A DNA stretch of 64,000 nt from Verrucomicrobiota bacterium (lineage in GTDB: Bacteria; Verrucomicrobiota; Verrucomicrobiia; Verrucomicrobiales; Verrucomicrobiaceae): assembly GCA_025360015.1 (NCBI GenBank), contig JANYCZ010000029.1:124001-188000 (forward strand), in the 5' to 3' direction. The notes below the pieces were generated by a model. It was given only the letters and a program-made list of their open reading frames with translations. It did not search any database and was not told where the DNA came from. Positions 43,567 through 59,144 of this stretch are shown piece after piece. Within the stretch, counting starts at the first letter, position 1, and each line of letters begins with the position of its first letter. Both the position numbers and the translations under genes were made by a program.

Positions 43567-44916
43567 TTAGACCGCCCAGCCGGTGCGGTAGTCGCGGGTG
43601 AGCCACTTGGCATCGCCACCGCTGACGTACTCATGCTTCTCAGGATTCCATTTCATGGAACCGCCGTGGTAGTAGGCCTGGCTCATGAGGTGGCAGGAGA
43701 TGGCCGTGCTGGCACCGATGGCGACATCACAGATCGGCTTCTCGCGGGTCTTGATCGAGTTGAGCCAGTCTTCGTGGTGGTTCTTCGAGTTGTAGAGCTT
43801 CACCTTGGCGTCAGCGAGGTATTCGCGCTCAGTGAGGATGACTTCACGGTCGAGGGAGGTGCCTTTGTCGGCGTCCTTGTCCCAGAACTTGTGAATGGTC
43901 TTGCCACCGAGGACGAATTCAAACTTGCCGCGGTTGACGTGCACTTCGCCGTTCGCGCCGTAGAAGGAGACACCTTTGCCCTTGCCGTTGTGCAGGAGAG
44001 GAATGCCGCTGGCGTAGATGAGCTTGGCACCGTCGTTGGCGTTTGCATAATTTTCCGGCGCGATGATTTCAACCGGGCCGTGCTCGTCTTCACCGAGACC
44101 CCATTGGGCGATGTCAATGTGGTGCGCGCCCCAGTCGGTGATCATGCCGCCGCCAAATTCGCGGGTCATGCGCCAGGCGGGGAAGTGATTGTGAACACCG
44201 CGTGGGCTGAGCACGCTGCTGTATGGCACGAGCGGGCCCGGACCGCACCACATGTCCCAGTCGAGGCCGGGTTCCATGGGCTCTTCAGGATTGGCGTTGG
44301 GCTTGGCAGGAGCACCGAAGGCGGTTTCGACGTGGTCGATCTTGCCGATGATGCCGTTGCGGATGAGTTCGGCAGCCACGCGGAATTCTTTGCTGGAGCG
44401 CTGCTGGGAGCCGGTCTGCAGGATGCGCTTGTTGCTGCGCACGGAGTCGATGAGCGTGAGCGCTTCGTGGATGTTGTGGGTGAGCGGCTTCTCACAATAG
44501 ACGTCCTTGCCCGCGTTCAGCGCGGCGATGGCGATGAAAGCATGCCAGTGGTCCGGCGTGGCGATGACGACGGCGTCGATGTCCTTGCGCTCCAGCAGCT
44601 TGCGGAAGTCGGCGTAGGCTTCGCAGCCTTTGAAGCCAGCATCCTTGTCCTTGCCGTAGCGTTCTTCGACGGTTTTTTTGGCAAATTCGCGGCGGTTGGT
44701 GTCCACGTCGCAGACGGCCACGACCTGAACTTCCTTGCGGCCCAGGAAACTGGTGAGATGGCCGCTGTTCATTTTACCCACGCCGATGAAGCCGAGCGTG
44801 AGGCGCTCGCTCGGAGCGGTCTCAGCGCTCCAGACACGGGAGGGGAGGATGAAAGGCGCTGCCACGGAGGCGGCGGCAACTTTGGCGAACTGACGGCGTG
44901 AGGATGCGGTTGGCAT
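43567..44916 (-). CDS. Tat-exported Gfo/Idh/MocA-family oxidoreductase
   Basis: 449 residues from ATG 44916, which starts a twin-arginine leader (RRQFAKVAAASVAAPFILPS). The N-terminal Rossmann domain has GFIGVGKMNSGHL and VVAVCDVD, and the signature EKPL within VYCEKPLTHN (EKP supplies the catalytic Lys). The C-terminal domain has WRMTREFGGGMITDWGAHHIDIAQWG, with the His-rich substrate/metal block. Tat-exported members are common in Verrucomicrobia and Planctomycetes; the substrate is probably a sugar or inositol derivative. Confidence 0.93.
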   Translation of the reverse strand: MPTASSRRQFAKVAAASVAAPFILPSRVWSAETAPSERLTLGFIGVGKMNSGHLTSFLGRKEVQVVAVCDVDTNRREFAKKTVEERYGKDKDAGFKGCEAYADFRKLLERKDIDAVVIATPDHWHAFIAIAALNAGKDVYCEKPLTHNIHEALTLIDSVRSNKRILQTGSQQRSSKEFRVAAELIRNGIIGKIDHVETAFGAPAKPNANPEEPMEPGLDWDMWCGPGPLVPYSSVLSPRGVHNHFPAWRMTREFGGGMITDWGAHHIDIAQWGLGEDEHGPVEIIAPENYANANDGAKLIYASGIPLLHNGKGKGVSFYGANGEVHVNRGKFEFVLGGKTIHKFWDKDADKGTSLDREVILTEREYLADAKVKLYNSKNHHEDWLNSIKTREKPICDVAIGASTAISCHLMSQAYYHGGSMKWNPEKHEYVSGGDAKWLTRDYRTGWAV

Positions 44917-44930
44917 GGTTGATATTTGGA

Positions 44931-44960
44931 TGGAAATTGAGGGTGGAAATTGAGGGTGGA
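44931..44960. repeat. short tandem repeat upstream of the Gfo/Idh/MocA gene
   Basis: The 13-base unit GGAAATTGAGGGT occurs twice in succession from 44932, between the divergent oxidoreductase and gmk genes. It may be an operator or simple-sequence slippage. Confidence 0.5.
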
Positions 44961-45019
44961 ACAATACAGCCCATTTGCCAAGTCTCTTGCACTCGGTGTT
45001 GGCGTGGGTATTCGGCAGG

Positions 45020-45634
45020 ATGGAATTTTCTAAACACCGCCTGGGGCAGTTGATCGTCGTTTCCGGGCCGTCCGGTACCGGCAAAACGACGCTGGCACGG
45101 AAAGTGTGTGACCGCGGCGAGGCCATCTTTTCCGTCTCCTGCACCACACGTGCCCCCAGGGCGGGCGAGGTTGACGGAAAGGATTATTTTTTCCTGACTG
45201 AGGAGGACTTCGTGGCGCGGGCGGAGCGCGGGGAGCTGTTTGAATACGCCCGCGTGCATGGCCGGCTTTACGGCACGCTGAAGAGCTACGTGTATGAGAA
45301 TCTCCAGCGCGGGGTGGATGTGATCATGGACATCGACGTACAGGGTGCCATGCAGGTGCGCGCCTGCGAGGATGAACTGGTGAAGCGCTGCCTGCTGGAG
45401 ATTTTCGTGCTGCCACCGAGCCTGCAGGAACTGCGCAACCGCCTCTCCGGCCGCGCCACGGAAGATGCCGCAGCCTTTGAACTGCGCATGCAAAACGCAG
45501 CGGCAGAGATGGAGCACTGGAGCAAGTATGGCTACCTGCTCATCAGTGGCGAACGCGCAGACGATGCGCGTCGGTTTGATGCCATCCTTGAAGCCGGGCG
45601 GATGAGGACTGCCCTAATGATGCACGACCAATGA
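45020..45634 (+). CDS. gmk: guanylate kinase
   Basis: 204 residues from ATG 45020, the family length. GMP kinase phosphorylates GMP to GDP. The P-loop GPSGTGKT is at 16-23, and the GMP-binding part is SVSCTTRAPRAGEVDGKDYFF (the SxTTRxPRxGE motif) with GELFEYARVHGRLYGT and VIMDIDVQGAMQVR. It diverges from the oxidoreductase gene and sits just before the convergent amidase gene. Confidence 0.96.
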   Translation: MEFSKHRLGQLIVVSGPSGTGKTTLARKVCDRGEAIFSVSCTTRAPRAGEVDGKDYFFLTEEDFVARAERGELFEYARVHGRLYGTLKSYVYENLQRGVDVIMDIDVQGAMQVRACEDELVKRCLLEIFVLPPSLQELRNRLSGRATEDAAAFELRMQNAAAEMEHWSKYGYLLISGERADDARRFDAILEAGRMRTALMMHDQ

Positions 45635-45647
45635 CTGGCTCAGTCAT

Positions 45648-46421
45648 TCATGACTGCACCAGCCCCGCATCCTTCAGCGCAGGAAATTGGCCACGCCATT
45701 GGCCCACAATGGCCGGATCAATCTTCGCGCTCACGACACGCTCCTGCTCTGCGGCGTCCGCAATCACCAGTCCATGCGGATCCACCACGATGCTCCGGCC
45801 GGTGTAGGTGAAGTCGGGATCGGTGCCGCAACGGTTGACGCCGATGACGTAGGCGAGGTTTTCGATGGCGCGGGCCTGGAGCAGCGAGATCCAATGATGG
45901 ATGCGCTTCACCGGCCACGCGGCGATGTAGATCAACACTTCAGCTCCGGCGTGGATGGCATCGCGGGCGAGTTCGGGAAAGCGCAGATCGTAGCAGATGA
46001 GCGGGGCGATGCGCAGGCCCTGCCATTCGAAAAGGCAAACACCCTGGCCTGCGACATGGACTTGCTTCTCCCCGCCCAGGGTGAAGGGATAATTCTTCGT
46101 GTAGCGGCAAAGCAGAGTGCCATCCGGAGCGATGGCGAGAGATTGATTCATGCCCCGGCCATCACTTCTCTGCGTCACCAGCCCACCGATGACACAGCTT
46201 TGGTACTGCGCGGCCATTTCGCGCAGGAACTGCTCGGTGGGACCCTGCTCAGGCTCCGCAGTGACGGCTAGGTTCATGCTAAAGCCCGTGGCAAAGGTTT
46301 CAGGCAGGACAATGAGTGATCCAGGCGACGGATCGGCGCTGGCAATCAATTGACGCGCCTTGGCATGGTTCGCAGAGCGGTCTTCCCAGATAGAATCGAT
46401 TTGGACGAGATGTACATTCAT
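45648..46421 (-). CDS. nitrilase-family amidohydrolase (omega-amidase-like)
   Basis: 257 residues. The Glu-Lys-Cys triad of the carbon-nitrogen hydrolase family is present: Glu in VLPETFATGF, Lys in RYTKNYPFTLGGE, Cys in LICYDLRFPELAR. The FATGFS and CYDLRFP wording is typical of YafV/omega-amidase (hydrolysis of alpha-ketoglutaramate or alpha-ketosuccinamate). The ATG overlaps the MFS gene stop by ATGA. Co-transcription with a transporter hints at use of an imported amide, which is inference. Confidence 0.88.
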   Translation of the reverse strand: MNVHLVQIDSIWEDRSANHAKARQLIASADPSPGSLIVLPETFATGFSMNLAVTAEPEQGPTEQFLREMAAQYQSCVIGGLVTQRSDGRGMNQSLAIAPDGTLLCRYTKNYPFTLGGEKQVHVAGQGVCLFEWQGLRIAPLICYDLRFPELARDAIHAGAEVLIYIAAWPVKRIHHWISLLQARAIENLAYVIGVNRCGTDPDFTYTGRSIVVDPHGLVIADAAEQERVVSAKIDPAIVGQWRGQFPALKDAGLVQS

Positions 46422-47683
46422 AGACGTTCTTGCCGTGCGCCCGGACGCAGGCGGTCGGTGGATTCAGAGTTGCTGCGGGCGCGGACACCGATGAAGCAGC
46501 TGGCGGAAAGGATGGTGATGCCGCAGACGATGGCAAAGGCGTCGAACGACATGACCTTGATCATGGCGAAAGCCAGGGAAGGGGCGATGAGGCCGCGCAC
46601 ACCGGTGAGAAAAGTATGCACGCTCATGTACTCGGCGACGGCATGCTTGGAGGCGAGCTTGGTGACCCACAGCGCCCAGGTGACGTTGCCACCCGCATTG
46701 GCCATGCCCCAAAAAGCCATGCCCAGCGTCCACCAGAAGAGATTGTGACCCAGATAAAAACACAGGATGCCGGCAGCGAAGAAGACATTGAGCACAGCGC
46801 GCACGGTGAAAAGATGGAAGCGGTCATAGACCAGCCCCCAGGGATAGGAAAACACGACGCGCGCGAGCACCGGGACCACACCGGTGATCCACGCGACATC
46901 GAACTCGCTTAGGTTGATGCCATGGCGGGGATTAGCGAGGTATTCGACGAAGAGGCATGCTGCGGCGAGATTGCCAATGCCCATCATCATCCAGGAGATG
47001 AGCAGCGTGCGGAAATCGCGATCCTCCCGCACCCAGCGCATGGAACTCCAAAGGCTGGTGCTGGAATTCTCCGGTGCCTCCCACGGAATGATCGGCAGGC
47101 CATAGGTCCAGAAGCCTGAGATGAAGCTGCTGGCGGCGAAGGCCCACAGCAGCCAGACATAGTTCCCGACGTTCCAGCCGAGCAGTTTGCCGCCCACAAA
47201 ACCAAAGCACACGGCGGCAGCCGCCCGCGTGACTCCGGTGACCGCATACAGCTTGCCGCGTTTTTCGGCGGGGTAGTTGATGCGGTAAATCTGCGTCATC
47301 AGCGGGATCTGCATGGTCAGACAGAACAAGCCGAAACTCAGCCCCCCAATGTAAAGCAGAGGGCTGGTTGGAAACGCCGCTGAAACCGCCATGCAGCCAC
47401 CGCCCAGCAGTTGCACCTTCGCCGCCGTGCGTGCGATGGTGCTTCTGGCCCGCAGCAGGAGCGGCACCACAAACAAGCTGGCCACCATGCCGCCGCTGGT
47501 GGCGCTGAGGAAAACGGACTTTGCCACATCCCCCATGTGAAAAACCCGCACGGCGATGAGCATGCCGAAGGTCGCGGTCAGGGTGTCGATGACCCCCGAG
47601 GGGATCGAGCGCCACAGCTCGTTGCGCAAGGTCCGGGAGGTGATGGCATCGGCTTCGGTCACGCAGGCTATTCGCATGAACAA
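46418..47683 (-). CDS. MFS transporter
   Basis: 421 residues with 11-12 hydrophobic segments and the usual two six-helix halves. Between helices 2 and 3 is a basic loop (LLLRARSTIARTAAK). Motifs are weak, so substrate cannot be called. It is upstream of and overlaps the amidase gene by 4 bases on the same strand. Confidence 0.8.
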   Translation of the reverse strand: MFMRIACVTEADAITSRTLRNELWRSIPSGVIDTLTATFGMLIAVRVFHMGDVAKSVFLSATSGGMVASLFVVPLLLRARSTIARTAAKVQLLGGGCMAVSAAFPTSPLLYIGGLSFGLFCLTMQIPLMTQIYRINYPAEKRGKLYAVTGVTRAAAAVCFGFVGGKLLGWNVGNYVWLLWAFAASSFISGFWTYGLPIIPWEAPENSSTSLWSSMRWVREDRDFRTLLISWMMMGIGNLAAACLFVEYLANPRHGINLSEFDVAWITGVVPVLARVVFSYPWGLVYDRFHLFTVRAVLNVFFAAGILCFYLGHNLFWWTLGMAFWGMANAGGNVTWALWVTKLASKHAVAEYMSVHTFLTGVRGLIAPSLAFAMIKVMSFDAFAIVCGITILSASCFIGVRARSNSESTDRLRPGARQERL

Positions 47684-47729
47684 AGATGCGCGTCCAGCAC
47701 GGAGGCGGGACGCGCATCAGAGAAGATCA

Positions 47730-47757
47730 AAAACAGGCGAGGCTGTGGCCTCGCGCC
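47730..47757 (-). terminator. Rho-independent terminator
   Basis: On the minus strand the stem GCGAGGC / GCCTCGC (loop CACA) is followed by a five-T run. It begins 7 bases past the stop of the GYF_2 gene and separates it from the MFS gene. Confidence 0.65.
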
Positions 47758-47760
47758 GCA

Positions 47761-48027
47761 TCAGGCGGCTTTCTTGGCCTTCTTGGTTGCAGGAGCCTTG
47801 GCGGCTGGTGCTGCTGCTGCCTTGGCGGCGGGCTTCTTCACCAGCTTTGGCTCAGGCATCGGGACGACGGTCAGCCATTCCTGATAATGAACCCAGCTTT
47901 CGCCGCCTTCATCACGCAGGTAGTCAGATGGAGTGAGGAGGCCGCGCTTCTGGAAATCGAGGATTTCTTTTTTGGCAAAGGGGCCAAATTCAACGAAGGC
48001 GCGGCTGAGGTAAACGAGGTCTTTCAT
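47761..48027 (-). CDS. GYF_2-domain protein with histone-like Lys/Ala tail
   Basis: 88 residues. Residues 1-52 are a GYF_2 (DUF4339) domain with its marks: FGPFAKKEILDFQKRGLL, YLRDEGGESWVHYQEWL. Residues ~60-88 are a basic Lys/Ala/Pro tail (KKPAAKAAAAPAAKAPATKK), as in histone H1 or AlgP-like proteins. GYF domains bind Pro-rich peptides; the tail could bind nucleic acid. A terminator follows and an inverted repeat lies upstream at 48087. Its own transcription unit. No named family for the whole protein. Confidence 0.75.
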   Translation of the reverse strand: MKDLVYLSRAFVEFGPFAKKEILDFQKRGLLTPSDYLRDEGGESWVHYQEWLTVVPMPEPKLVKKPAAKAAAAPAAKAPATKKAKKAA

Positions 48028-48086
48028 GGGTGTGTTTTTTTATGAGGTTGTAGGTTTAGGGGAGTGGGCCTTAGCATCACATAAGC

Positions 48087-48121
48087 TGTGGAACAAGCAG
48101 CAATCTTGCCACAGTTCCACA
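48087..48121. promoter_or_regulatory. inverted repeat in divergent intergenic region
   Basis: TGTGGAAC (48087-48094) and GTTCCACA (48114-48121) are perfect 8-base inverted arms separated by 19 bases, about 60 bases before the GYF_2 start and 100 before the gene at 48221. It may be an operator or an RNA hairpin. Confidence 0.35.
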
Positions 48122-48220
48122 AAATTCGGCTAGCGTTCCATGGAGCGGATTTTTTTTGCTTCAATCTAGCCATGTGCGCTTGCGGCACACGGTTCCGGCC
48201 TCTAGTTTATATGACAATTA

Positions 48221-49240
48221 ATGATTATTTGTCTCGAATCCTCCATCCTCGGCGGGTACCTTTCCAACGAAGTACCCGGTTTGGTCACAGGCGTGTTTCA
48301 TCTTGCGGGTCAAAATCAGCCCGTGCGTGTCGAATTGGTGGGCAATTTTCTGCGCGATATCGCTGGCTGCCGAGTGGACTTTCACAACCCGTTGCCGGAC
48401 GCCAATGAAGACCATGTGGATGCCATCTCAGCCATGCAGCATGGCTACAGCGGTCTGATGACCGCCTCCTCTCGCGTGGTGAAACTCCCGCGCCGCAGAT
48501 CACAGTCGAGCTCGGTTATGACTTTGCCTGAGCCGCCCGGGCTGAAAAACCTGCTTTTCTTCGAATGGTTCAATCAGGACCACCAGCGCATTCTGATCCA
48601 GTCCTGGCATCTGCAGTTGCGTGTGTCTTCGCCGCGCTGGCAGCTGACGAAAGACGAAGAGGCCGCTCTGCTGCGGCAGAACCGTGCCCGCCGGAAGCAT
48701 TTCCTGCTGGGTAACAGTCGCAATGCCAAATCCGCCGACGCTTTGCACAGTCCCGGGTTCGATGATCCCTTTCAGCCTGCCAAGCCGGGCAGCGATCCAT
48801 TCGGCGCGGTGAAGCGTGACCACGCAACCGAGCCTCCACGTAAAACGCCTGCCAGAGCCAAGGGCGGCGCAGATTTGGACCCCGTGGCACGTTCAGCGGC
48901 GCTGGCGAAGGAATTGCGCCGCTTTCAAAGCCTGCTCGTCTTCAATGAAGAGGTGCGCACCCGCCCCGCAGTCCTGCGTCTGCTCTCCACCGTGGCAGAT
49001 CTGGCCGCGCATCTCATCCACGTGCTGCGTCAGTTCGCGGAAGCGGAAAAAGATCAGTGGCAGTTTCTGGTAGTCGATCTTGAACAAAGCCTGCCCCTGT
49101 TTGCTGCGGCCCTCAATGCCACGGACAAGCTGGTGCAGCAGCATCCCCAGGGTGCAGACATGGAGTGGCTGGCCGGAGTACAGGCCAGCCTGCTGAACAT
49201 CGAGCTGCGCATGCGTGAGCTGCTGGGGCTGCTGCGCTGA
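48221..49240 (+). CDS. unknown-family protein A (paralogue of the gene at 56021)
   Basis: 339 residues, no signal peptide. I do not recognise a named family. The first ~150 residues align with the protein at 56021-57226: ILGGYLSN, VRVELVGNFLRDIAGC (match LRGNAWRDLAGC), FHNPLPD (FTNPTPS), LMTASSRVVKLP (ITASRQVKVD) and LLFFEWFNQDHQRILI (LYIEWFSEENGRVFI). After a Pro/Lys-rich linker (~175-225) comes a helical part rich in Leu (LRRFQSLLVFNEEVRTR to the end). The shared shape suggests a common ~150-residue domain plus variable helical tails. The gene leads into the 49289/49870 run. Confidence 0.7.
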   Translation: MIICLESSILGGYLSNEVPGLVTGVFHLAGQNQPVRVELVGNFLRDIAGCRVDFHNPLPDANEDHVDAISAMQHGYSGLMTASSRVVKLPRRRSQSSSVMTLPEPPGLKNLLFFEWFNQDHQRILIQSWHLQLRVSSPRWQLTKDEEAALLRQNRARRKHFLLGNSRNAKSADALHSPGFDDPFQPAKPGSDPFGAVKRDHATEPPRKTPARAKGGADLDPVARSAALAKELRRFQSLLVFNEEVRTRPAVLRLLSTVADLAAHLIHVLRQFAEAEKDQWQFLVVDLEQSLPLFAAALNATDKLVQQHPQGADMEWLAGVQASLLNIELRMRELLGLLR

Positions 49241-49288
49241 AAAGTGAGAGGGGGTTGATCCGCACAAGGCTTGCGTCTAGCATGCGGG

Positions 49289-49858
49289 ATGCGTCTTTCC
49301 CATTATGCCCTGGCTTTAACGATCATCCTCCTCGCCATCACCGGTTATCTGGCATGGGAGGCCCAGGAGGAGGCCAAAGGCGCGCGCAAAGAACTCGAAC
49401 TCGTGCGCAAGCAGCAGGCGGCCCATGAGATGGCCATGCCGCAGAAGCCCAGTACGGTGGCAGAACTGCCGCCAGCGCCTCCTGCACCGCTCCCCGCAGC
49501 TCCGCCCTTGTCTGGCAGCAATCTCATGCCAGGGACTCCCGCCTCGCTGCCCTCACCAGCACCCGCCGCCGCGCCGCTGACCGATCTGCAGAAGCAGCTC
49601 ATGGGCATGCCTGCATTTGCCAAGGTGATTGAATCCCACGATGACCAAGGCTTCGCCGTCATCAGTGCTGGCAGGAACAAGCAGCTTGCCAGCGGAATGA
49701 AATTCGATGTCCGCCGCGGCAATGGCCTGGTGGGCCGCGTGATCGTGGGGGATACCATTGAAGCTGCGGAAGCCGTGGTGGACATCGACACCTCCGTCAC
49801 GCTCCCTGGCGTTCACATTGAAACGGGTGACGAACTGATTCTGCCAGTCCGCAAATAA
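49289..49858 (+). CDS. single-anchor membrane protein with Pro-rich linker
   Basis: 189 residues from ATG 49289. A membrane helix occupies ~7-22, then a short coiled-coil-like stretch (EEAKGARKELELVRKQQ), a Pro/Ala-rich linker (~55-100), and a ~90-residue C-terminal domain with FAVISAGRNKQLASGMKFDVRRG and GDTIEAAEAVVDID. The latter recalls the small beta-rich domain of type IV pilus-associated or flagellar FlgT-like proteins, but not strongly. 48 bases after member A and 11 bases before the TlyA gene, probably one transcript. Confidence 0.55.
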   Translation: MRLSHYALALTIILLAITGYLAWEAQEEAKGARKELELVRKQQAAHEMAMPQKPSTVAELPPAPPAPLPAAPPLSGSNLMPGTPASLPSPAPAAAPLTDLQKQLMGMPAFAKVIESHDDQGFAVISAGRNKQLASGMKFDVRRGNGLVGRVIVGDTIEAAEAVVDIDTSVTLPGVHIETGDELILPVRK

Positions 49859-49869
49859 CGATCCTCCAG

Positions 49870-50607
49870 ATGCCGCGTGAACGTCTTGATCTCGCCTTGG
49901 TGAAGCTCGGCATCGTGCCCTCGCGTGAGCAGGCCAAACGGCTGATCATGGCCGGTGAGGTCAGTGTGCTGGGCAAACGAATCACCCAGCCGGGCTGTCT
50001 GATTAACGAACTCCAGCAGATCGTCGTGCGAGAGCGGCCCAGGTTCGTCAGCCGTGGTGGTTTGAAGCTTGAGGGGGCGCTCAAGCATTTTAACATCGAT
50101 GTCACCGGCATGACCGCTCTCGACGTCGGGGCGTCCACCGGAGGATTCACCGATTGCCTGCTGCAGCGTGGTGCACTGAAAGTCTTTGCCTTCGATGTCG
50201 GCACCAATCAACTCGCCTGGAAAATGCGCAGTGATCCCCGGGTAATTTCGCGGGAGCAGTTCAATCTCCGCCACATGCGCCCGGAAGACGTGGGGCAGGA
50301 GGTGGACATCCTGGTGGCCGATCTCTCCTTCATCTCACTTACTTTGGTGCTGCCTGCGGTGCTGCAGGTGCTGCGGCCGGGTGGTCAGGCGCTCGTTTTG
50401 ATCAAGCCTCAGTTCGAGCTGTCGCGTGAGGAAGTCGGCAAGGGGGGCATTGTGCGTGAGCCAGAGCTGCACGTCAAAGCCTGCGCGCGAATTGAAGAGT
50501 TTGTACGCTCGCAGCCCACCCTGGAATGGCGCGGCATGATTGAGTCCTCCATCCAGGGGACGGATGGCAATCGCGAGTTTCTAGCTTGGTTTGGCAGGCA
50601 GAGTTGA
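49870..50607 (+). CDS. tlyA: TlyA-family rRNA 2'-O-methyltransferase
   Basis: 245 residues: an N-terminal S4 RNA-binding domain (1-60, RLDLALVKLGIVPSREQAKRLI) and a Rossmann SAM-binding domain with ALDVGASTGGFTDCLL. The catalytic Lys-Asp-Lys-Glu set can be traced as Lys in LKLEGAL, Asp in DVGAS, Lys in LIKPQFE and Glu in the PQFEL stretch. TlyA proteins methylate ribose 2'-OH of C1409 in 16S and C1920 in 23S rRNA. Good family length. Confidence 0.9.
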   Translation: MPRERLDLALVKLGIVPSREQAKRLIMAGEVSVLGKRITQPGCLINELQQIVVRERPRFVSRGGLKLEGALKHFNIDVTGMTALDVGASTGGFTDCLLQRGALKVFAFDVGTNQLAWKMRSDPRVISREQFNLRHMRPEDVGQEVDILVADLSFISLTLVLPAVLQVLRPGGQALVLIKPQFELSREEVGKGGIVREPELHVKACARIEEFVRSQPTLEWRGMIESSIQGTDGNREFLAWFGRQS

Positions 50608-50699
50608 GTCCCAAGAAACTGAAATAAGCGGCTCAGGTCCTAAATTCTCACTTATGAGACGCTTATTCGGTTATTTTACAGAAAATCTACAATTTAAGG

Positions 50700-50728
50700 T
50701 TGCAGCGTTGCAATAATTATCATAAAAT
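50700..50728 (+). promoter_or_regulatory. sigma70-like promoter for the pilin-like gene
   Basis: TTGCAG (50700-50705) and TAAAAT (50723-50728) are 17 bases apart in an AT-rich stretch, 22 bases before the ATG at 50751. It lies in a 143-base gap after the TlyA gene. Confidence 0.5.
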
Positions 50729-50750
50729 ACCATCATTGATAAAAGCAGCC

Positions 50751-51173
50751 ATGAAAACCTTCACACACATTTCCACTCACCGCCGAATCCGCTCTGCGTT
50801 CAGTCTTTTCGAGGTTTTGATGGTTATCGCCATTCTTGGAGTGCTGGTTGGCATGGCTGTGCCGATGATGAGTCAGAGCGATGCGGTTTATGCCGCTCGG
50901 GACCGTCGCAATGCCCAAGAGCTATGCTCCACCTGCATGATGGCCCAAGCGGCAGATTTGAATTTTGTGCAGGATGACAGCGTCATCAACACCGTGCATG
51001 CCATCGTGCGTGGTGGCATGACAGTGCGTGGCGCGATGCGGGGCCGGGTTTTTGTGGTTCCAGGCCTCAGCGAAGAAGACATTCAAGGTGCCGCGAAATA
51101 CCTGCAGGTGCGGGATGGTCAGTTGCTGTACACCAACACCGCAGCCTCTGCCCCCGGAGATCAGCGGTTGTAG
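50751..51173 (+). CDS. prepilin-like (type IV pilin/pseudopilin N-terminus) protein
   Basis: 140 residues from ATG 50751. The leader has the type IV prepilin pattern: a basic segment (THRRIRSA), then FSLFEVLMVIAILGVLVGMAVPMM, with Glu5 of the mature helix. The -1 residue is Ala rather than the usual Gly. A C-terminal region of ~75 residues has AARDRRNAQELC and two Cys (LCSTC). It resembles GspG/H-like or ComG pseudopilins of Verrucomicrobia. No assembly ATPase or PilD is adjacent. Confidence 0.8.
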   Translation: MKTFTHISTHRRIRSAFSLFEVLMVIAILGVLVGMAVPMMSQSDAVYAARDRRNAQELCSTCMMAQAADLNFVQDDSVINTVHAIVRGGMTVRGAMRGRVFVVPGLSEEDIQGAAKYLQVRDGQLLYTNTAASAPGDQRL

Positions 51174-51259
51174 CGATCACCTCGCAGGCCTGTATGCGCA
51201 CTTGATTTGCCACGTATTTACCTTGCCTGCGGGCATCGTTACCACCAGCTTGAGGCTTC

Positions 51260-51667
51260 ATGAATTCTTCTTTCCTCAAAAAGAACTGGTACTTTTTCAC
51301 CCCGGCGATCATTCTCATCATTCCGGTGCTGATGGTGGTTTTTTGCACCGTCAATTATGGCTACTCCATTCCTGACTCCATCAATGCGGTGTTTCATGTG
51401 GGCTCCACCAGCACGCGCTACTCCATGGGATTTTCGGAACGAAAATTCAAGTCAGTGCAGGTCGGCATGGACGGGAGGTCGGTTTTCAACACGGTCAAAA
51501 ACCCGATGGAGGGCAATGATCCCGGCGCTGATGTGGCCAGCTGGCGCTACAGCCTCCCTGGCAGCGGCGCGGGTTATTACCATGAGCGCACCATTGTTTT
51601 GGCGAAGGATAAAAGTGGTGTCCCGCGGGTCAAACAGCTCATCAGTCGTTTTCACACGGCGAATTGA
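51260..51667 (+). CDS. small membrane-anchored hypothetical protein
   Basis: 135 residues with one hydrophobic helix (about 13-32, FFTPAIILIIPVLMVVFC). The rest is soluble: VGSTSTRYSMGFSERKFKSV, GAGYYHERTIVLAKDKSG. No family recognised. It sits 86 bases after the pilin-like gene and 30 before the LysM lipoprotein, with which it may be transcribed. Confidence 0.5.
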   Translation: MNSSFLKKNWYFFTPAIILIIPVLMVVFCTVNYGYSIPDSINAVFHVGSTSTRYSMGFSERKFKSVQVGMDGRSVFNTVKNPMEGNDPGADVASWRYSLPGSGAGYYHERTIVLAKDKSGVPRVKQLISRFHTAN

Positions 51668-51697
51668 TTCACTCGCAAAAGTGGCGCATTCTCCCGC

Positions 51698-52210
51698 ATG
51701 AATCAGTTCACGTCATTTCTGTGCAAAGCCTGCCTGGCCATCCCGCTGCTGCTGCTGGCTGCGTGTGAAAATTCCTCGCACATCAAGGGGCTGCCCAAAG
51801 ACCTGCCGGTCATCAATCTGCATGGTTCACCGGACACACCGGCCCATAGCCTGGGGCATGCGGACTATCCTTTCGCGGACAACGGCGACTATAAAAGCGA
51901 CTGGGCTGCCGAGGGCGGGCAGGGCTCTGGCATGGACTATTCTTCCTGGCGCTCCTCCCATGGCGGTTCGTCCTCACACGGTTCTGCCAAGAAAAAGACT
52001 TCCTCGAAAACCTCAAAAACATCCTCTAAAACCGCTTCCAAATCCGGCGGCAAGAGTGCCCACAAAGGCGGCTCCTACACCATCAAAAGCGGAGACAACC
52101 TGGGTGCCATCGCACGCAAGAACGGCACCACGGTGGCAAAGATCAAGGCGGCGAACGGCTTGTCTTCCGACAGCATCCGCGCGGGCAGAACGCTTAAAAT
52201 TCCCAAGTGA
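51698..52210 (+). CDS. LysM-domain lipoprotein
   Basis: 170 residues. Type II signal peptide with lipobox LLAAC (Cys23). Residues ~84-122 are Ser/Lys/Gly-rich low complexity ([18 protein letters not shown]). The C-terminal LysM domain (126-169) is complete: [18 protein letters not shown] and [19 protein letters not shown]. LysM binds the glycan backbone of peptidoglycan, so this lipoprotein should tether to the wall. Its stop overlaps the amidase start by 4 bases (GTGA), which couples the two. Confidence 0.9.
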
Positions 52211-52830
52211 CCTTGCACCCGCGCCTTTCACGCATCGCGGCTTGGGGTCTGTTGCTGATCATGGGCTGCGCAGCGGCTGAGGCGGCAGCGGAACCGCTGC
52301 GGTTTTCCACGGTGGTGATTGATGCGGGCCACGGCGGCAAGGACGGCGGCTCCGTCTGGAACAAATTGATCGAAAAAAAGCTCTGCCTGGATGTCGCGAA
52401 ACGCGTGGAAACGGCTCTGAAATCGAAAGGCCTCAAGACCGTCATGACCCGGCGTACTGACACCTTTGTAGAGCTCGAACAAAGGGCACGCATCGCCAAC
52501 CGTGTGTCCTCGTCCGTCTTTCTCAGCATTCATTTCAATGGCTGTCGCAAAACCACCATTTCTGGTGCGGAGGTGTATTACCGCAGCCCGCGCGGCAAAT
52601 CGCTGGCCGTGGCCATCAACCGTACGCTCAAAAGCGGGATCGCAGGCAGCCCGCGCGGCATTTTTCATGCCGACTTCAAAGTGCTGCGGGAGACCCAAAT
52701 GCCCGCCGTACTCGTGGAATGCGGTTATCTCAGCAACAAGCGCGAGGCCCTGCGCTGCGCTGATCCTGCGCACCGTCAGAAGCTGGCCGCTGCCATTGTC
52801 AGCGGTCTGCTGGCGGTCCGGCCGAAGTGA
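52207..52830 (+). CDS. N-acetylmuramoyl-L-alanine amidase (Amidase_3)
   Basis: 207 residues from GTG 52207, with a lipobox-like or hydrophobic leader ([12 protein letters not shown]). The Zn2+-amidase motifs are clear: [10 protein letters not shown] (His42), Glu56 in NKLIEKKL, His109 in LSIHFNG, and catalytic Glu171 in LVECGYLSN. It cleaves MurNAc-L-Ala bonds, as AmiA/B/C do in cell separation. No regulatory helix insert is obvious, so it may lack autoinhibition. Coupled to the LysM lipoprotein, which could target it to peptidoglycan (inference). Confidence 0.93.
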
Positions 52831-52933
52831 CTGCCAGCACAGCTTTCATTTCTTTTGAAACTTCACATGTGCGAGGCATCCGCGTGGCATTTGACGAAGC
52901 CCCTGCCGTGGTGGATGGAATACCCAGATTTCC

Positions 52934-53944
52934 ATGTCAGTCCCCGTCATCAACGCCAGCAATCCTGTTTTTCCGTTTCATCTTGTGCGGACGGACTTGG
53001 AGCGCGTGGAAACCGCCATCCTCGAACAAGCCCGCGCGTTTGACCCCGGCGTCGAAGGTTATGTGAGCTACGTTTGCAAAACCTCGGGCAAGCGCATCCG
53101 CCCAGCCTTGGCCGTACTCGCCGGCGGTGCCACGGGTGGCACTCACGAAGGGCACACACGCCTCTCAGTCATTCTCGAGCTCGTCCACATCGCCTCTTTG
53201 GTGCATGACGACATCATGGACGGCGCGGACATCCGCCGCGCCCAGCCGACCGCCGTCGCGAAATGGGGCAGCAGTCTCAGCGTTCTTTTGGGCGACAGCC
53301 TCTTCGCCTACGCGCTCGAACTCGCCACGGAGTTTGAAGACACCCACGTCTGCCGCACGATCGCCCGTGCCTCGCGCGATGTCTGCACCGGCGAAATCCT
53401 GCAAACCCAGCGCCGCTTCGACTTCAATCTCTCCGTCACCGATTATCTCAAGATGATCGAGATGAAGACCGCCGCCCTCTTCGCCGCTGCCAGCGAACTC
53501 GGTGCCCGTCTCAACCATCAGCCCGACTCCGTGCAGATGTCACTGCGTGACTACGGCCTCAAGCTCGGCACCGCCTACCAGATTTACGACGACTGTCTCG
53601 ACATCGTCGGCGACGAAAAAACAGTCGGCAAAACGCTCCGCACTGACCTCGCCCGGGGCAAGCTCACGCTGCCCATACTGTATCTCCTCGAAAGCGCCAC
53701 CGATGCGCAGAAGCAGAAGCTCAACCGCATGCTGCTCAAAGGCGAGCCGATGGACACCACCATTCTCGCTGGCATCGCCGACTACGAAGGTGCCGTCGAT
53801 CGCGCCGTCAAATTCGCGCAAAACATGCTCGTCGATGCCCGTGCCGATTTGGTCTGTCTCGGTGCTTCGCCGCACAAGCAGGCGCTCGAAGACATCGTCG
53901 GCTATCTGCACAGCCTGCTGGATCAGTGCCGGGCGATTCACTGA
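52934..53944 (+). CDS. polyprenyl diphosphate synthase (IspB-like)
   Basis: 336 residues from ATG 52934. The two Asp-rich motifs are DDIMD (92-96) and DDCLD (219-223), with GKRIRPAL upstream. Small residues (Ala87, Ser88) just before the first motif fit a product longer than FPP. It probably makes an all-trans octaprenyl or longer diphosphate for quinone tails. It links to dxs and dxr elsewhere in the window. The upstream 103-base gap has no clear feature. Confidence 0.93.
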   Translation: MSVPVINASNPVFPFHLVRTDLERVETAILEQARAFDPGVEGYVSYVCKTSGKRIRPALAVLAGGATGGTHEGHTRLSVILELVHIASLVHDDIMDGADIRRAQPTAVAKWGSSLSVLLGDSLFAYALELATEFEDTHVCRTIARASRDVCTGEILQTQRRFDFNLSVTDYLKMIEMKTAALFAAASELGARLNHQPDSVQMSLRDYGLKLGTAYQIYDDCLDIVGDEKTVGKTLRTDLARGKLTLPILYLLESATDAQKQKLNRMLLKGEPMDTTILAGIADYEGAVDRAVKFAQNMLVDARADLVCLGASPHKQALEDIVGYLHSLLDQCRAIH

Positions 53945-53992
53945 GATGAGTGGAACGCGACAAACGGTTAACTGAGAACAGAGCACGGACTC

Positions 53993-54688
53993 ATGAGCCG
54001 CATCCACGACATCCCGGAAAACGACCGCCCGCGGGAGCGCCTCCTCCGCCTCGGTCCGCAGGCGCTCTCGGATGCCGAACTTCTCGCCCTCTTCATCAAC
54101 ACCGGCACGAAAGGTGAAAATGCCCTGCAGATCGGCCAGCGGATCCTGCGCGATTTCAAATCGCTCCGCGCCCTCTCCCGCCTTGAAACCGCTGTTTTGA
54201 GAAAGATCAAAGCTCTGGGGCCGGCGAAAACTGCTCTGCTCGCCGCTGCTTTTGAACTTGGCCGCCGCTCCGCGCAGGAGCCCTCGCACGCCGAGATCAT
54301 TCTCGACCGCCCGCAGCTCATCTATGATTACATTGGCCCCGAGATGCAGGCCCTCGGCAGTGAATCCGTCCGCATCATTCTGCTCAATACGAAGCTTGCT
54401 GTCATGCGCAGTGAAGAGGCGTTCAAAGGCAGCCTGAACGAATGCGTCGCCCACCCGCGCGATCTGTTGCGGAAGGTGCTCATTCACAACGCTTACGCCT
54501 TCATCCTCGTTCACAATCACCCTTCCGGCGATCCCACCCCCAGCGAGCCCGACCGCCGCCTCACCCGCCGTCTCCGTGAAGCCTCCGAAGCCACAGGGAT
54601 CTCCCTCCAAGACCACCTCATTATCGGCACCCCTGCTGAATCACGCCCGCTGCCCTACTTCAGCTTCAAGGAGCATGGGATGCTGTGA
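53993..54688 (+). CDS. radC: RadC/JAMM-domain DNA repair-type protein
   Basis: 231 residues. N-terminal UPF0758 helix-hairpin-helix part with RERLLRLGPQALSDAELLA and the C-terminal JAMM metal motif HNHPSGDPTPSEPD, which has both His and the Asp. Despite the name, RadC proteins have no proven repair role and several are linked to mobile elements; here the neighbourhood is housekeeping. It starts 48 bases after the polyprenyl synthase. Confidence 0.93.
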   Translation: MSRIHDIPENDRPRERLLRLGPQALSDAELLALFINTGTKGENALQIGQRILRDFKSLRALSRLETAVLRKIKALGPAKTALLAAAFELGRRSAQEPSHAEIILDRPQLIYDYIGPEMQALGSESVRIILLNTKLAVMRSEEAFKGSLNECVAHPRDLLRKVLIHNAYAFILVHNHPSGDPTPSEPDRRLTRRLREASEATGISLQDHLIIGTPAESRPLPYFSFKEHGML

Positions 54689-54712
54689 GCTTACGTTTCT
54701 TCCGAGAACAGA

Positions 54713-55210
54713 ATGAAAAGAATGTGGCTTCATCGCATCTGTGCTTATCCGAATAGGATTGCTTGGTTTTTTGGAGCACTGATCATCAATGCGCTCCTGA
54801 TCATCTGTTTGTCTGCTGGGTGGGGAGATTTTGCCATCTTGTTCGATCCAGACGTTTTGCTGTGGTTCCTGTTGTTGCTCATTCCGGCCAGCTTGCTGGG
54901 TTTCTTAGCCATGATCCCTTTCGGTTTACCGATAGGTCGTTTTTGTAATCACATGAATGGAGCTCCATTTGAAATAGGAGAAAAGGTACTGATTCTACGG
55001 GGACCCCACGTCGGTCAAGAGACACAAGTTGGAGGATTCACCAAAGGCCAGGGGGGGGAGCTTCTCGTTCTGGAACTTGGAGAAGATGCGGGCGAGCGCT
55101 ATCGAAACCTCTTCGCGGAATGCCATGTAACCCGGGTGAAGAGACTTGGGGTGCGTGGGCAACTGGTAGTCGGCAGCGGTGGCTCTTCATCGAGTACATC
55201 AGTGCCGTAG
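54713..55210 (+). CDS. two-helix membrane protein with an SH3/KOW-like tail
   Basis: 165 residues. Two membrane helices (about 18-37 and 48-68) are followed by a soluble part with GEKVLILRGPHVGQETQVGGF, similar to KOW or SH3-like barrels. The tail is Gly/Ser rich. Weakly conserved-looking; no family recognised. It starts 24 bases after radC, and its GC content is lower than that of its neighbours. Confidence 0.5.
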   Translation: MKRMWLHRICAYPNRIAWFFGALIINALLIICLSAGWGDFAILFDPDVLLWFLLLLIPASLLGFLAMIPFGLPIGRFCNHMNGAPFEIGEKVLILRGPHVGQETQVGGFTKGQGGELLVLELGEDAGERYRNLFAECHVTRVKRLGVRGQLVVGSGGSSSSTSVP

Positions 55211-55268
55211 AATGCGCATGGCTCGAATTCAGATTGCAGAGGACGGTTTGCGGAATGAGAGAGTGAGC

Positions 55269-55529
55269 ATGGGACAAGACGAAATCGAGCGCAACCTGGG
55301 CGTGCAGCCTCTGGACCGGGTCATGACTGAGCATGAATTGGGAAATCACGCCTTGGTGGCCGCCAGTACGGAACCTATGACGCACAAAGCCGTGCAGCGT
55401 GCCCGCAAAGGCCGCCGCCTGACCAAGCACATGAAACAGCGCATGGCCGACGCCCTGAATCTCCTCATCAAGCAGAAGGGCGTGGAGATCGAGCGCCCGT
55501 GGGTGGTGAAGGATTTGTTTACGTATTGA
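55269..55529 (+). CDS. small basic protein of unknown function
   Basis: 86 residues from ATG 55269, preceded by a purine-rich GAGAGAG that can serve as ribosome-binding site; in-frame ATGs at 55212 and 55218 would lengthen it. The protein is Arg/Lys-rich and helical: KAVQRARKGRRLTKHMKQRMADALNL, then KGVEIERPWVVKDLF. I recognise no named family, though similar short proteins occur in PVC genomes (not checked). The basic helix suggests RNA, ribosome or DNA binding. Confidence 0.6.
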   Translation: MGQDEIERNLGVQPLDRVMTEHELGNHALVAASTEPMTHKAVQRARKGRRLTKHMKQRMADALNLLIKQKGVEIERPWVVKDLFTY

Positions 55530-55605
55530 AGTGGCAAAACGGATAGCTGCAGGTGTATCGCACAGCTTGCCGGGGTGATTTCGCCACGCTAGCATCCGCC
55601 CACCC

Positions 55606-56019
55606 ATGCCCGACGCCATCGCCAACCGCCGTTTCGTCACTGCTGCCGAAAAAATCGACTTCCAGTCCCCTTGGACGCTGGAGGAGTGGATCTGCCGCAG
55701 CGACATCGTGAACAACGAGCACCTCATGATGGTGAGGGCCAACATGGAGCCGGGGCGCAGTCATCCCTTTCACTCGCACCCGACGCGGGAGGAGGTGATC
55801 TACATCCTTTCCGGCAAGGCCGAGCAGTGGGTCGGCCAGCAAAAAAAGATCCTCGGTCCTGGCGACACCGCCTTCATTCCCATGGGCGAAATCCACGGCA
55901 CCTGGAACGTGGGGGACGAAAAGCTCGTCTTCCTCGCGATCCTTTCCCCGGCCAAGGCGGACGAGCCCGGTCTCGTGGATCACAGTGAGGAAGAGCCTTG
56001 GAAGTCTTTGCGCAAGTAG
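55606..56019 (+). CDS. cupin-domain protein
   Basis: 137 residues, one cupin barrel. The metal motifs are HSHPTREEVIYILSG (His, His, Glu) and PMGEIHGTWN (His). The family covers isomerases, dioxygenases and sensor proteins, so no reaction can be assigned. It converges with the member B gene, with 1 base between stops, and a terminator overlaps that junction. Confidence 0.85.
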   Translation: MPDAIANRRFVTAAEKIDFQSPWTLEEWICRSDIVNNEHLMMVRANMEPGRSHPFHSHPTREEVIYILSGKAEQWVGQQKKILGPGDTAFIPMGEIHGTWNVGDEKLVFLAILSPAKADEPGLVDHSEEEPWKSLRK

Positions 56020-56041
56020 CCTACTTTTCGCGCAATTTTTT
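56008..56041 (+). terminator. Rho-independent terminator overlapping the stop codons
   Basis: Stem TTGCGC AAGTA ... TACTT (3-base bulge) GCGCAA followed by six T residues on the plus strand. The hairpin starts inside the last codons of the cupin gene and runs into the end of the convergent gene. Confidence 0.6.
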
Positions 56042-57226
56042 GCGCAGATCGATGATGCCGTCACGGATGGCGAAGAGTTCGGCGCGGAAGTCGGTGAGCA
56101 AATCTTGCCGGTCGCTCCACTCGGGGGCTTCCATCAGTTCGTTCAGCGCTGCGAAGGCCTCGTTGGCCCAGTTGAGGCAGCGGCGTAAAATTGCGAGAGT
56201 GTGTCCGGTCTGGGATGAACCACCAAAGTCCTCCGTGCCGAGCGCCCCGGCCAGCTTGCCGCTGATGTTCATCGAGTTGCGGATGAAGCGGTCGAGTGCT
56301 GTGCTGCCATCGCTCTCTGCGGCGTTTTCAGCGCGTTCTTCTTTGATTTCGGTCAGCAGGCGCAAGACGAAGTCATGGGCCATGGTTTGCAGCGGGTGGG
56401 CTTCACGCTCGCTCTCTTCCAGGAAGTCGGAGAAGGCTTGATCATCGAGTTCGCTCTCGATCACATCCAATTCGGGCAGCATTTCATGGCCCTCTTTCCA
56501 GCTTTCACCCTCAGTGTCCTCGTCATCGGCTTCGTGTTCACTGCTGCCACCCAGCATGTGATCCCAGCCCATGACAAAGGCGATGCGGTCATCATGCAGA
56601 CCGTCGACGCCGTATTTTTCGATCGCCTCCATGTTCGCGTCTGAGAGGCGATCAGATTGTTTGAGTGAATCTTCCCAGGATTCTTCACTGTCATCGAATT
56701 CTTCATCGTCATCCTCTTTCGGCTCGGGGCGCCGGATGATGCCGGCCAGCCATTCTCGCATGGCTTGAAGGTTGCTCATTTTTTGCGCCGCCTCCTGCGC
56801 CTCGTCCATTTCCCAAGCCCACGCGGAGATGCTGATCTCAAAATCCATGCCCTCGATAAAGACCCGCCCATTTTCCTCAGAAAACCACTCGATGTAGAGC
56901 TCATTGCGCCATTCGGCAGGAGGATCTGCGCCGCCGCTTGCCTCCCGTTTCGCTGCCACGGTATCCACCTTCACTTGGCGAGAGGCAGTGATGTCGCCGG
57001 CGTGACCCTTCTGCTTCGGCTTCAAGCTGGCGGCGGCGGACTGGGACGATGGCGTGGGGTTGGTGAAGGTGATGGTGCAGCCGGCGAGATCGCGCCAGGC
57101 ATTGCCGCGCAGATCGATGATGACGGGATCTTCGCGACCGACCAGCCAGAGCTTGCCGCGCAAGTTGTCGCGGGTGGTGTTGTCGATTTCGCCACGGATG
57201 ACGGCAGTGTCCAGACGCAGGGCCAT
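56021..57226 (-). CDS. unknown-family protein B (paralogue of the gene at 48221)
   Basis: 401 residues from ATG 57226, no signal peptide. The first ~145 residues match protein A (VIRGEIDNTTRDNLRGKLWL, IIDLRGNAWRDLAGCTITFTN, GDITASRQVKVD, LYIEWFSEENGRVFIEG), then the two diverge. Residues ~175-260 are very acidic (EPKEDDDEEFDDSEESWEDS, HEADDEDTEGES), and the C-terminal ~120 are helical (LNWANEAFAALNEL, FRAELFAIRDGIIDLRKKL). The N-terminal domain is therefore the family core. No function can be assigned. It sits between the convergent cupin gene and the divergent scpB. Confidence 0.7.
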   Translation of the reverse strand: MALRLDTAVIRGEIDNTTRDNLRGKLWLVGREDPVIIDLRGNAWRDLAGCTITFTNPTPSSQSAAASLKPKQKGHAGDITASRQVKVDTVAAKREASGGADPPAEWRNELYIEWFSEENGRVFIEGMDFEISISAWAWEMDEAQEAAQKMSNLQAMREWLAGIIRRPEPKEDDDEEFDDSEESWEDSLKQSDRLSDANMEAIEKYGVDGLHDDRIAFVMGWDHMLGGSSEHEADDEDTEGESWKEGHEMLPELDVIESELDDQAFSDFLEESEREAHPLQTMAHDFVLRLLTEIKEERAENAAESDGSTALDRFIRNSMNISGKLAGALGTEDFGGSSQTGHTLAILRRCLNWANEAFAALNELMEAPEWSDRQDLLTDFRAELFAIRDGIIDLRKKLREK

Positions 57227-57319
57227 GCGTGCATGAAAGCGTGGGCACGGCGGGAATGTCAAGGCTAAGGCACGGCTTGACTCTCCCCTCGGGCTCGCTT
57301 GAGATTGTATGTCCGCGCC

Positions 57320-58024
57320 ATGGAACTGATCTCGATCGTCGAAGCCCTTCTTTTTGCCACCCAGGAGCCCCTGGGCGTGCCGCAGATGTGTGCCGCCGTC
57401 AAAGAGACCGCCAAGGACATCTGTGATGCCGCCAGCGATCCGCTGGCCGAAGGAAGCCCGACCCAGATCCCGGAGTGGGTCGCCCCACTGGCTGCCACCA
57501 CCGAGGAGCAGGTGCGCGGGAGTTTGGACGAACTGATCGCCCGCTACGCTGCAGAGAAGCATGCCTTCACCCTCGTCGAGCGCGCGAACGGCTGGCGCAT
57601 CGCCGCCCGTGGCGAGTATGCCGAGTGGTGCCGCGCGCTATATCCCGGCAAGAAGGTGCAGCGCCTGAGCCAGCCCGCGCTTGAGACGCTCGCCATCGTG
57701 GCCTATCGCCAGCCGATCACCAAGGCCGGCATCGAAGCCGTGCGTGGTGTTTCGGTGGATGCCATGGTGCAGCAGCTCATTGACCGCGGTTTGATGAAAA
57801 TCGAAGGCCGCGCCGACCTCCCTGGCCGCCCGCTGCTGTATGGCACCACGGAGGCTTTCCTCGATCACTTCGGCGTGCGCAGTCTGGATGACATGCCCAA
57901 CGCCTCCGAACTTCGCCGGGTGAAATTGCCGACCGCTGTGGAAGGTGCCTCCGCTGCTGAGCAACCTCAGGAGCACCAGCTCTCCCTGGCTCCGGTCACT
58001 CCTGCTGCGGCAGAAGAGTCTTAA
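57320..58024 (+). CDS. scpB: SMC-Scp complex subunit ScpB
   Basis: 234 residues from ATG 57320. Two winged-helix domains: ISIVEALLFATQEPLGVPQM near the N-terminus, and SQPALETLAIVAYRQPITKAGIEAVRGV, the ScpB hallmark. ScpB dimers bind kleisin ScpA and SMC to compact chromosomes. An acidic linker at 45-60 is longer than in many ScpBs. No scpA is next to it. The C-terminal ~40 residues are Gln/Pro rich. Confidence 0.92.
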   Translation: MELISIVEALLFATQEPLGVPQMCAAVKETAKDICDAASDPLAEGSPTQIPEWVAPLAATTEEQVRGSLDELIARYAAEKHAFTLVERANGWRIAARGEYAEWCRALYPGKKVQRLSQPALETLAIVAYRQPITKAGIEAVRGVSVDAMVQQLIDRGLMKIEGRADLPGRPLLYGTTEAFLDHFGVRSLDDMPNASELRRVKLPTAVEGASAAEQPQEHQLSLAPVTPAAAEES

Positions 58025-58045
58025 CCCTTTTTTCTCCTGCGGTCC

Positions 58046-59131
58046 ATGTCCCTCGAAGAAGTCCGCAACAAGATCGACAGCATCGATCAGCAACTCCTGC
58101 GTCTGCTCAACGAACGCGCCGAACTGGTCCACGCCGTGGGCGAAATCAAACGCAAGGACGACCTCGACATCTATGTGCCGGGCCGTGAAGACAAGCTGCT
58201 GCGCAAGCTCGCGGAGATCAATCGTGCGCAAAACGGCCGCCTCACCGAGCGGGCCATCCGCGCCATCTATCGCGAGATCATGAGTGCCGCGCTCGCTTTG
58301 GAGGACAGCCTCAAAATCGCCTACCTCGGCCCCACGGGATCCTGGACACATCAGGCGGCAGTGAACAAATTCGGCCATTGCGTCGAATACCTCGCCGAAG
58401 CCAGCACCGAAGGTGTCTTTGGCCGCGTCGCCGCACAGACCGCCGACTATGGCGTCTTGCCCATCGAGCACTCCACTGAAGGCGCGGTACACCACACGCT
58501 CGATCATCTGGCTGACAGCGCCTTGCAGATCTACGCCGAAATTCTGTGGAAGGCCGACGCCGCCGTCATGGCGCAGGGACCGAACAGCACTATCACCGAG
58601 ATCCATGGCCGCGCCCAGATGCTCGCTCACTGCCGTCCCTGGCTCATGCAGAGCTTCCCTGGCGCACAGCTCATCGAGTCCGCTAGCTCCAGCGCCGCCG
58701 CCACCCTCGCCGCGCAGAATCCCACCGTGGCCGCCCTCGGCACCCCTCTGAGCGCCGAACTGCATGATCTGCGCGTCATCGCCACCTCGCCGCGCGAATA
58801 CGCCACCCAGACCCGCTTCATCATCCTCGGCCGCCGCTCTGGCCCGCCCTCCGGCAATGACAACACGATGCTCATGATCCATTCCAAGGATCGCGTCGGC
58901 GCGCTCATGGAAGTCCTGCAAGTCTTCGCCTCCCGCAACGTCAACGTCCGCCAGATCGAAAACCGCCCCACCACCAGCGGCACCGAGGCCCGCTTCTTCC
59001 TCGAAATCAGCGGCCACCATTCCGATGGCACGCTCAAGCAGGCTATCACTGCCCTCGAAATCGAAGGCATTGCCGTTCAAGTAAAGACTTTAGGCAGCTA
59101 TCCGGCTCCGGGCTGGGTTGAAGAGCGATAA
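58046..59131 (+). CDS. pheA: bifunctional chorismate mutase / prephenate dehydratase
   Basis: 361 residues, the typical P-protein size. AroQ chorismate mutase ~1-90 (NKIDSIDQQLLRLLNERAEL); prephenate dehydratase ~90-265 with YLGPTGSWTHQAA and the TRF motif YATQTRFIILG; ACT domain ~275-360 with VNVRQIENRPTTSGTEARF, which binds Phe for feedback inhibition. It makes phenylpyruvate from chorismate. It follows scpB by 21 bases. Confidence 0.96.
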   Translation: MSLEEVRNKIDSIDQQLLRLLNERAELVHAVGEIKRKDDLDIYVPGREDKLLRKLAEINRAQNGRLTERAIRAIYREIMSAALALEDSLKIAYLGPTGSWTHQAAVNKFGHCVEYLAEASTEGVFGRVAAQTADYGVLPIEHSTEGAVHHTLDHLADSALQIYAEILWKADAAVMAQGPNSTITEIHGRAQMLAHCRPWLMQSFPGAQLIESASSSAAATLAAQNPTVAALGTPLSAELHDLRVIATSPREYATQTRFIILGRRSGPPSGNDNTMLMIHSKDRVGALMEVLQVFASRNVNVRQIENRPTTSGTEARFFLEISGHHSDGTLKQAITALEIEGIAVQVKTLGSYPAPGWVEER

Positions 59132-59144
59132 CTCCCCCTCTGCC

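Follow-up and report, generated by a model that had tools for sequence, protein, structure and literature searches.

Gene content of the locus

The window analysed here, a 64,000-nt stretch of contig JANYCZ010000029.1 (GCA_025360015.1, positions 124,001 to 188,000), contains two related protein-coding genes, for which all coordinates below are window-based. Gene A (48221..49240, plus strand) encodes a protein of 339 aa made up of an N-terminal domain (N-domain), a DPF-containing linker and a four-helix tail. Gene B (56021..57226, minus strand) encodes a protein of 401 aa in which the N-domain is followed by an acidic linker, a helical hairpin and a four-helix bundle. Both reading frames had been called in a first-pass annotation and both are present; for B the coordinates given there hold but the minus strand was not stated, and a plus-strand reading of the interval contains stops. 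No signal peptide or membrane segment is apparent by eye in either protein.

The N-domain of A, including its terminal helix (residues 1-164, 48221..48712, plus strand), is homologous to that of B. In BLASTP, 46 of 164 residues are identical (28%, E 1e-23), so that the alignment of some 150 residues described earlier in fact reaches about 164 and the view that two divergent copies of one domain lie here is upheld. The relationship also appears in a search of the source genome itself (E 1.4e-20), in which A and B are the sole members found (6.6 Mb, 96.9% complete). Two of the three shared motifs named in the first-pass annotation are exact, namely GNxxRDxAGC (GNFLRDIAGC in A and GNAWRDLAGC in B) and FxNPxP (FHNPLP and FTNPTP). 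The third, TASRxVKxP, is an approximation: a similar stretch occurs in both proteins but neither TASSRVVKLP in A nor TASRQVKVDT in B fits the pattern exactly.

The tails of the two proteins had been described as unrelated, which profile comparison does not bear out. We aligned 18 tails of A (three of 21 A rows, in which no tail was found by pattern, were left out) and 53 of 54 tails of B and compared the two alignments with hhalign, obtaining a score of 32.1 over 91 columns (E 3.7e-5 as a single comparison), whereas 40 block-shuffled controls did not exceed 16.1 and the reversed B alignment gave 16.0. With 130 B tails the score rose to 39.4 (best of 50 shuffles, 25.5). Because the tail score exceeds those of both the shuffled and the reversed controls, the C-terminal tail of A (residues 224-339, 48890..49237, plus strand; four helices in a low-confidence model) is homologous to that of B, and the proteins are homologous at both ends. 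It is the middle that differs, being an acidic linker plus helical hairpin in B and a DPF-containing linker in A. A and B are thus shown to be paralogues of one modular family, with homologous ends and different middles.

Domain architecture

An AlphaFold2 model of B built from 54 rows had a mean pLDDT of 86 and a pTM of 0.70; the model of A was poor (pLDDT 55) and was not used for fold search. The N-terminal beta domain of B (residues 1-140, 56807..57226, minus strand) is modelled as strands and short helical turns over residues 2-133 and is the part held in common with the viral proteins described below. Its conserved features are G, N, D, Q, EW and R positions and turns of the ASRK and NGR kinds. 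A helix at residues 142-165 and an acidic stretch lead to the modelled helical hairpin (residues 181-235, 56522..56686, minus strand), which carries a signature of the type EW...SD...EKY...MGW. Beyond the hairpin, the model has a low-confidence segment at 238-252 and helices at 253-274. Four further helices, 278-301, 310-329, 337-366 and 368-400, make up the C-terminal bundle (residues 277-401, 56024..56398, minus strand).

Distribution and paralogues

The first-pass annotation had proposed a family of two members, expanded in one lineage, and had suggested examining its phyletic spread. We searched 288 sampled genomes of the phylum. Query B alone matched 72 of them and the 54-row B profile matched 117, representing 69 of 151 genera, so that the family extends across Verrucomicrobiota and is not confined to two members; a third paralogue, C, is described below. 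Counted from the rows, 69 of the 117 genomes have an N-domain match, a spread that does not fit a lineage-specific expansion, and 48 match only from about position 130 onward, although many of the latter matches are weak (E up to 1e-3), short (down to about 45 positions) or interrupted by in-frame stops. Scanning 84,980 species yielded 368 confirmed stretches, of which the best 80 all come from records titled as Verrucomicrobiota, Kiritimatiellota or Lentisphaerota groups or as unnamed PVC or 'bacterium'; the MAG titles among them include Akkermansiaceae and Akkermansia muciniphila.

Both parts of B also occur alone. We fetched 20 loci (L219-L238), picked from the 48 genomes and from others with a second match restricted to the C-terminal part (C-part) and mostly having better scores, and all 20 contain an open reading frame whose profile match starts at about position 155-181 and runs through to the end of the profile. 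The proteins at these loci, found across Verrucomicrobiota, are helical and about 210-240 aa long, with a signature of the type EFDWE...MGW, an acidic linker and a four-helix end. Conversely, at five loci (L081, L088, L103, L110 and L129) the N-domain stands alone and the C-part is absent from the fetched DNA, which for L103 stops just some 400 bases past the gene. Since the N-domain and the helical C-part each occur alone, B is a two-module protein, and the data warrant two domain family records, one for the N-domain and one for the C-part.

Full-length A is present in 31 of the 35 genomes of the genus, with one further copy cut by a contig end, and two further genera of its family have A-like genes (L078, and L079, in which the tail is missing). 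Paralogue C consists of the N-domain alone (about 190 aa) and is found in 10 of the 35 genomes. One N-domain paralogue (G002:C127:15293-15843) has three in-frame TGA codons and is apparently a decaying copy.

A tree of 137 N-domains was built with IQ-TREE, leaving out two viral domains with matches of less than 100 residues. In this tree A forms one clade on a long branch (1.91), including one identical row (L256) labelled C, and branches with B proteins from a different family (f4; support 94/96), a placement to which the usual warning about long branches applies. The B proteins of A's own genus are placed elsewhere, in a clade with support of 100/98. In nine genomes of the genus (G000, G001, G004, G008, G012, G013, G023, G028 and G030) A and B share a contig, 6-12 kb apart, and in others, such as the six-contig genome G016, they are on separate contigs. 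Because A groups apart from the B of its own genus and the pair is close in only these nine genomes, the closeness of A and B is not that of a recent tandem duplication. As judged from sequence, A is a paralogue separate from the B of its genus.

Searches against known families

The domain had not been recognised in the first-pass annotation, and our searches agree: against Pfam, NCBIfam, PHROGs, PADLOC and PDB sequences, the A/B family gave no credible match above chance level, apart from one candidate that we rejected. This was IglI (NF041244, type VI secretion), which matched seven of 54 members at E<=1 (best 3.3e-5) and none of the 11 family members scanned singly. In 18 genomes holding B-type genes, IglI matched in seven, at best with 20 bits against a cut-off of 100, and five control genomes matched as well; the match at L160 falls, by arithmetic and assuming that C34 is that contig, on the linker and helices. 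The stand-alone C-part likewise gave no credible Pfam match in five proteins scanned, nor an NCBIfam match in those scanned against it.

The model-based fold search proposed in the first-pass annotation was run on B: the bundle looks S23/Avd-like (see below), and the beta domain had no confident fold match in whole-B searches, where the bundle filled the match lists. HIN- and OB-type Foldseek rows for B had probabilities of 0.06 or less and were not used. The single-strand-binding family SSB (PF00436) was also rejected on sequence profiles, as it gave no Pfam match in A or B and the score of the N-domain profile against 30 SSB rows was equalled by 26 of 50 shuffles.

Annotated phages and plasmids contained no match to P0002, and the phages none to the two viral N-domain proteins. 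In the literature listed on PVC signature proteins, on Avd and S23, on Verrucomicrobiota proteins without known function and on Akkermansia essential genes (including passages of PMC3444138), we recognised no paper on this family.

Viral stand-alone N-domain proteins

Scanned with the N-domain alignment, IMG/VR yielded three loci, each on its own contig. The contigs of L216 and L218 encode an identical protein (100%), which leaves two independent viral cases; further viral scans returned no contigs beyond these. In a set of 177 proteins, the 190-aa protein of L217 and the 157-aa protein of L216/L218 are homologous to the N-domain by profile (E 3.8e-16 and 8.5e-27, respectively). Residues common to A, B and the viral proteins are M1, G12, N16, G24, L39, G41, D46 and G49, followed by Q, G, G, EW and R. 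Neither viral protein has a PHROGs or Pfam match, and their NCBIfam matches are at chance level only.

The L217 contig is 171,836 bp long, and its N-domain gene lies 50 bases past the open reading frame of a DNA polymerase I (747 aa) and directly before an RNA ligase. The gene order, with names assigned by PHROGs, is metallophosphoesterase, 5'-3' exonuclease, a small gene, DNA polymerase, N-domain protein, RNA ligase, deoxyribonucleotidase-like, primase and UvsX/RecA-like. On the L218 contig (28,714 bp), the order is tail genes, a gene whose PHROG match to a polymerase type is weak (E 0.007), the N-domain gene (157 aa) and a DUF932 gene. The latter (L218 5529-6560) is directly 3' of the N-domain gene. 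PF00436, the SSB family sought, was found in neither viral record, both of which are possibly fragments.

Gene neighbourhoods in the bacterial hosts

Across 81 B loci, a survey of neighbours that yielded 28 or so groups with five or more loci revealed no shared operon, the largest real-looking group comprising 13 of the 81. In the window and in five of 20 fetched A loci (L062, L067, L068, L070 and L073), a small gene stands between A and a downstream tlyA, which we take to encode an rRNA methylase. The small gene (49271-49858 in the window), kept in place at these five loci, encodes a protein whose N-terminus includes a hydrophobic stretch and whose middle is rich in Pro. Six other A loci adjoin a gene that we presume to be SixA-like, and the neighbours of A vary between clades. 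The stand-alone C-part adjoins what is presumably an rlmN-like gene at four of its 20 fetched loci.

In three host genomes (L242, L245 and L248), polA precedes paralogue C on the same strand by 1-1.6 kb; by eye, no prophage genes were noticed among the shared neighbours of C. Proximity to polA occurs at four of 119 loci in all (three of 116 host loci plus the viral L217). Because the pattern was noticed after the fact and the three host loci among 116 belong to one subclade, we regard it only as a hint.

Apparent likeness of the C-terminal bundle to S23 and Avd proteins

A Foldseek search of PDB with the model of B returned chains of 2rld, a member of the S23 family, in its first three rows (probability 1.00, best E 9.9e-3), and an Avd-like protein appeared at rank 7 in a library of viral structures (probability 1.00, E 0.13); no match in either collection reached E 0.001. 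A second structure comparison with the B bundle gave 2rld with a Z of 13.6 (2.2 A over 109 residues), which according to the tool is within the chance range for mostly helical models because the bundle arrangement is common, 2gsc with a Z of 12.8 and the bAvd chain 8ub7_C with a Z of 10.7. Unrelated bundles, with Z up to 11.9, rank between these matches.

At the profile level, B tails scored 20.6 against 24 S23 proteins (best of 60 shuffles, 17.7), and 130 B tails scored 23.9 against the 24 S23 rows (best of 50 shuffles, 17.3). When 24 bAvd rows were added to the S23 rows the score of the 130 tails was 18.3, and two of 50 shuffles were as high. The A tails had no similarity to the S23 or bAvd profiles. 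Neither PF05635 (S23) nor bAvd gave a Pfam match at genes A or B (E up to 10), and the 25 families listed, out of 30, for the 54 B-type members include neither. PF05635 matches the source genome at three other places only and bAvd (PF22296) does not match it at all; S23 genes proper are found at other loci in 33 of 37 genomes. PF05635 genes are numerous in G000 and its relatives, with up to 11 per genome. Because Rfam had no match in window positions 44000-60000, A and B are not rRNA intervening-sequence genes, and by eye no reverse transcriptase was noticed among the listed open reading frames. On the model, the B bundle looks S23/Avd-like, and we do not call it a member of either family.

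Possible functions

We tentatively favour, with confidence well short of even, a reading in which A and B are putative cytoplasmic adaptors associated with nucleic acid or with replication or ribonucleoprotein complexes. The conserved beta domain would contact a partner, the C-terminal bundle would form oligomers, as S23 proteins do, and the acidic linker may serve as a flexible spacer; the two paralogues A and B would then be specialised versions. We lean towards nucleic acid because one virus has the domain within a replication module and the bundle looks S23/Avd-like. The polA gene ahead of C in three host genomes, the weak polymerase-type match beside the L218 gene and the failure to find PF00436 in the L217 record point the same way; the lack of a confident fold match for the beta domain, the want of a shared operon around B and the weak sequence link of the bundle to S23 point the other way. 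Several N-domains are acidic over their first 140 residues (pI 5.1 in the B of the window and 4.1 in viral L217; L102 and L132 were left out, as their reading frames are not trimmed to the start). On sequence grounds the acidic N-domains are unlike a typical nucleic-acid binder, which counts against the adaptor reading. Our confidence is held down because of this acidity, because the profile comparison gave no match of the SSB type and because there are two viral cases only.

Nearly as likely is protein-protein scaffolding, in which the beta domain is a docking module that makes no contact with nucleic acid. A and B might be scaffolds or regulators, their acidic and DPF-containing linkers might recruit partners, and the viral copies might mimic or hijack the host module. 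The acidic pI of several N-domains favours such a role, as do the many conserved glycines and aromatic and turn residues, the conserved core common to host and viral copies and the separate existence of the N-domain and the C-part, which is expected of interacting modules. However, no partner gene is consistently linked to the family, and in one of its two viral occurrences the gene lies in a replication module.

A bolder proposal, which we consider improbable, is that the beta domain is a new replication-associated module of phages and Verrucomicrobiota, putatively single-strand-binding or polymerase-accessory, to which the bacteria fused an S23/Avd-like oligomerising bundle and which multiplied in them into A, B and C.

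Also improbable is an association with the ribosome or rRNA, in which the S23/Avd-like bundle would bind structured RNA. The fold matches of the bundle to S23/IVP and Avd proteins are consistent with this possibility, as are the positions of tlyA after A and its small neighbour and of the rlmN-like gene beside the stand-alone C-part. Yet each of these contexts is confined to one clade, 15 of the 20 A loci have no tlyA within their flanks (some of them shortened by contig ends), the Rfam search of 44000-60000 gave no match and the sequence link to S23 is weak. Finally, it is very improbable that the N-domain is a second-messenger sensor of the PilZ type (a beta barrel with a helical tail), as its size and beta content are all that speak for this, PilZ (PF07238) has no Pfam match in A or B and itself occurs in one of 42 relatives, and PilZ motifs are not apparent in the domain.

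The family merits attention because roughly one in four of the genomes sampled from the phylum (69 of 288) carry the domain, and searches of Pfam, NCBIfam and PHROGs gave it no credible match. The viral stand-alone relatives, of 157-190 residues and in one case from a replication cluster, offer a cheap entry to the question of DNA, RNA or polymerase binding. Such binding, if it proves true, would put a name to a new replication or RNA module and account for conserved genes of these bacteria that have had no assigned role.

Comparison with known systems

The viral proteins of L217 and L216/L218 share the conserved N-domain core with A and B but lack the helical C-part. With SSB and other OB-fold replication proteins the family has in common a beta-rich domain and, in one virus, a place beside a DNA polymerase gene. 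It differs from SSB (PF00436) in that the profiles show no similarity and 40 of 42 relatives encode canonical SSB proteins in separate genes. Relative to S23 (PF05635) and bAvd (PF22296), A and B add a beta domain and a linker, have no match to either family, lie outside rRNA and have a weak sequence link at best. According to PMC4990558, the S23 family is without known function and its Xanthomonas member is a homopentamer of four-helix bundles, and PMC10053308 describes PF05635 as resembling Avd. It is the four-helix bundle topology that the C-terminal domain of B, as modelled, appears to share with S23 and bAvd.
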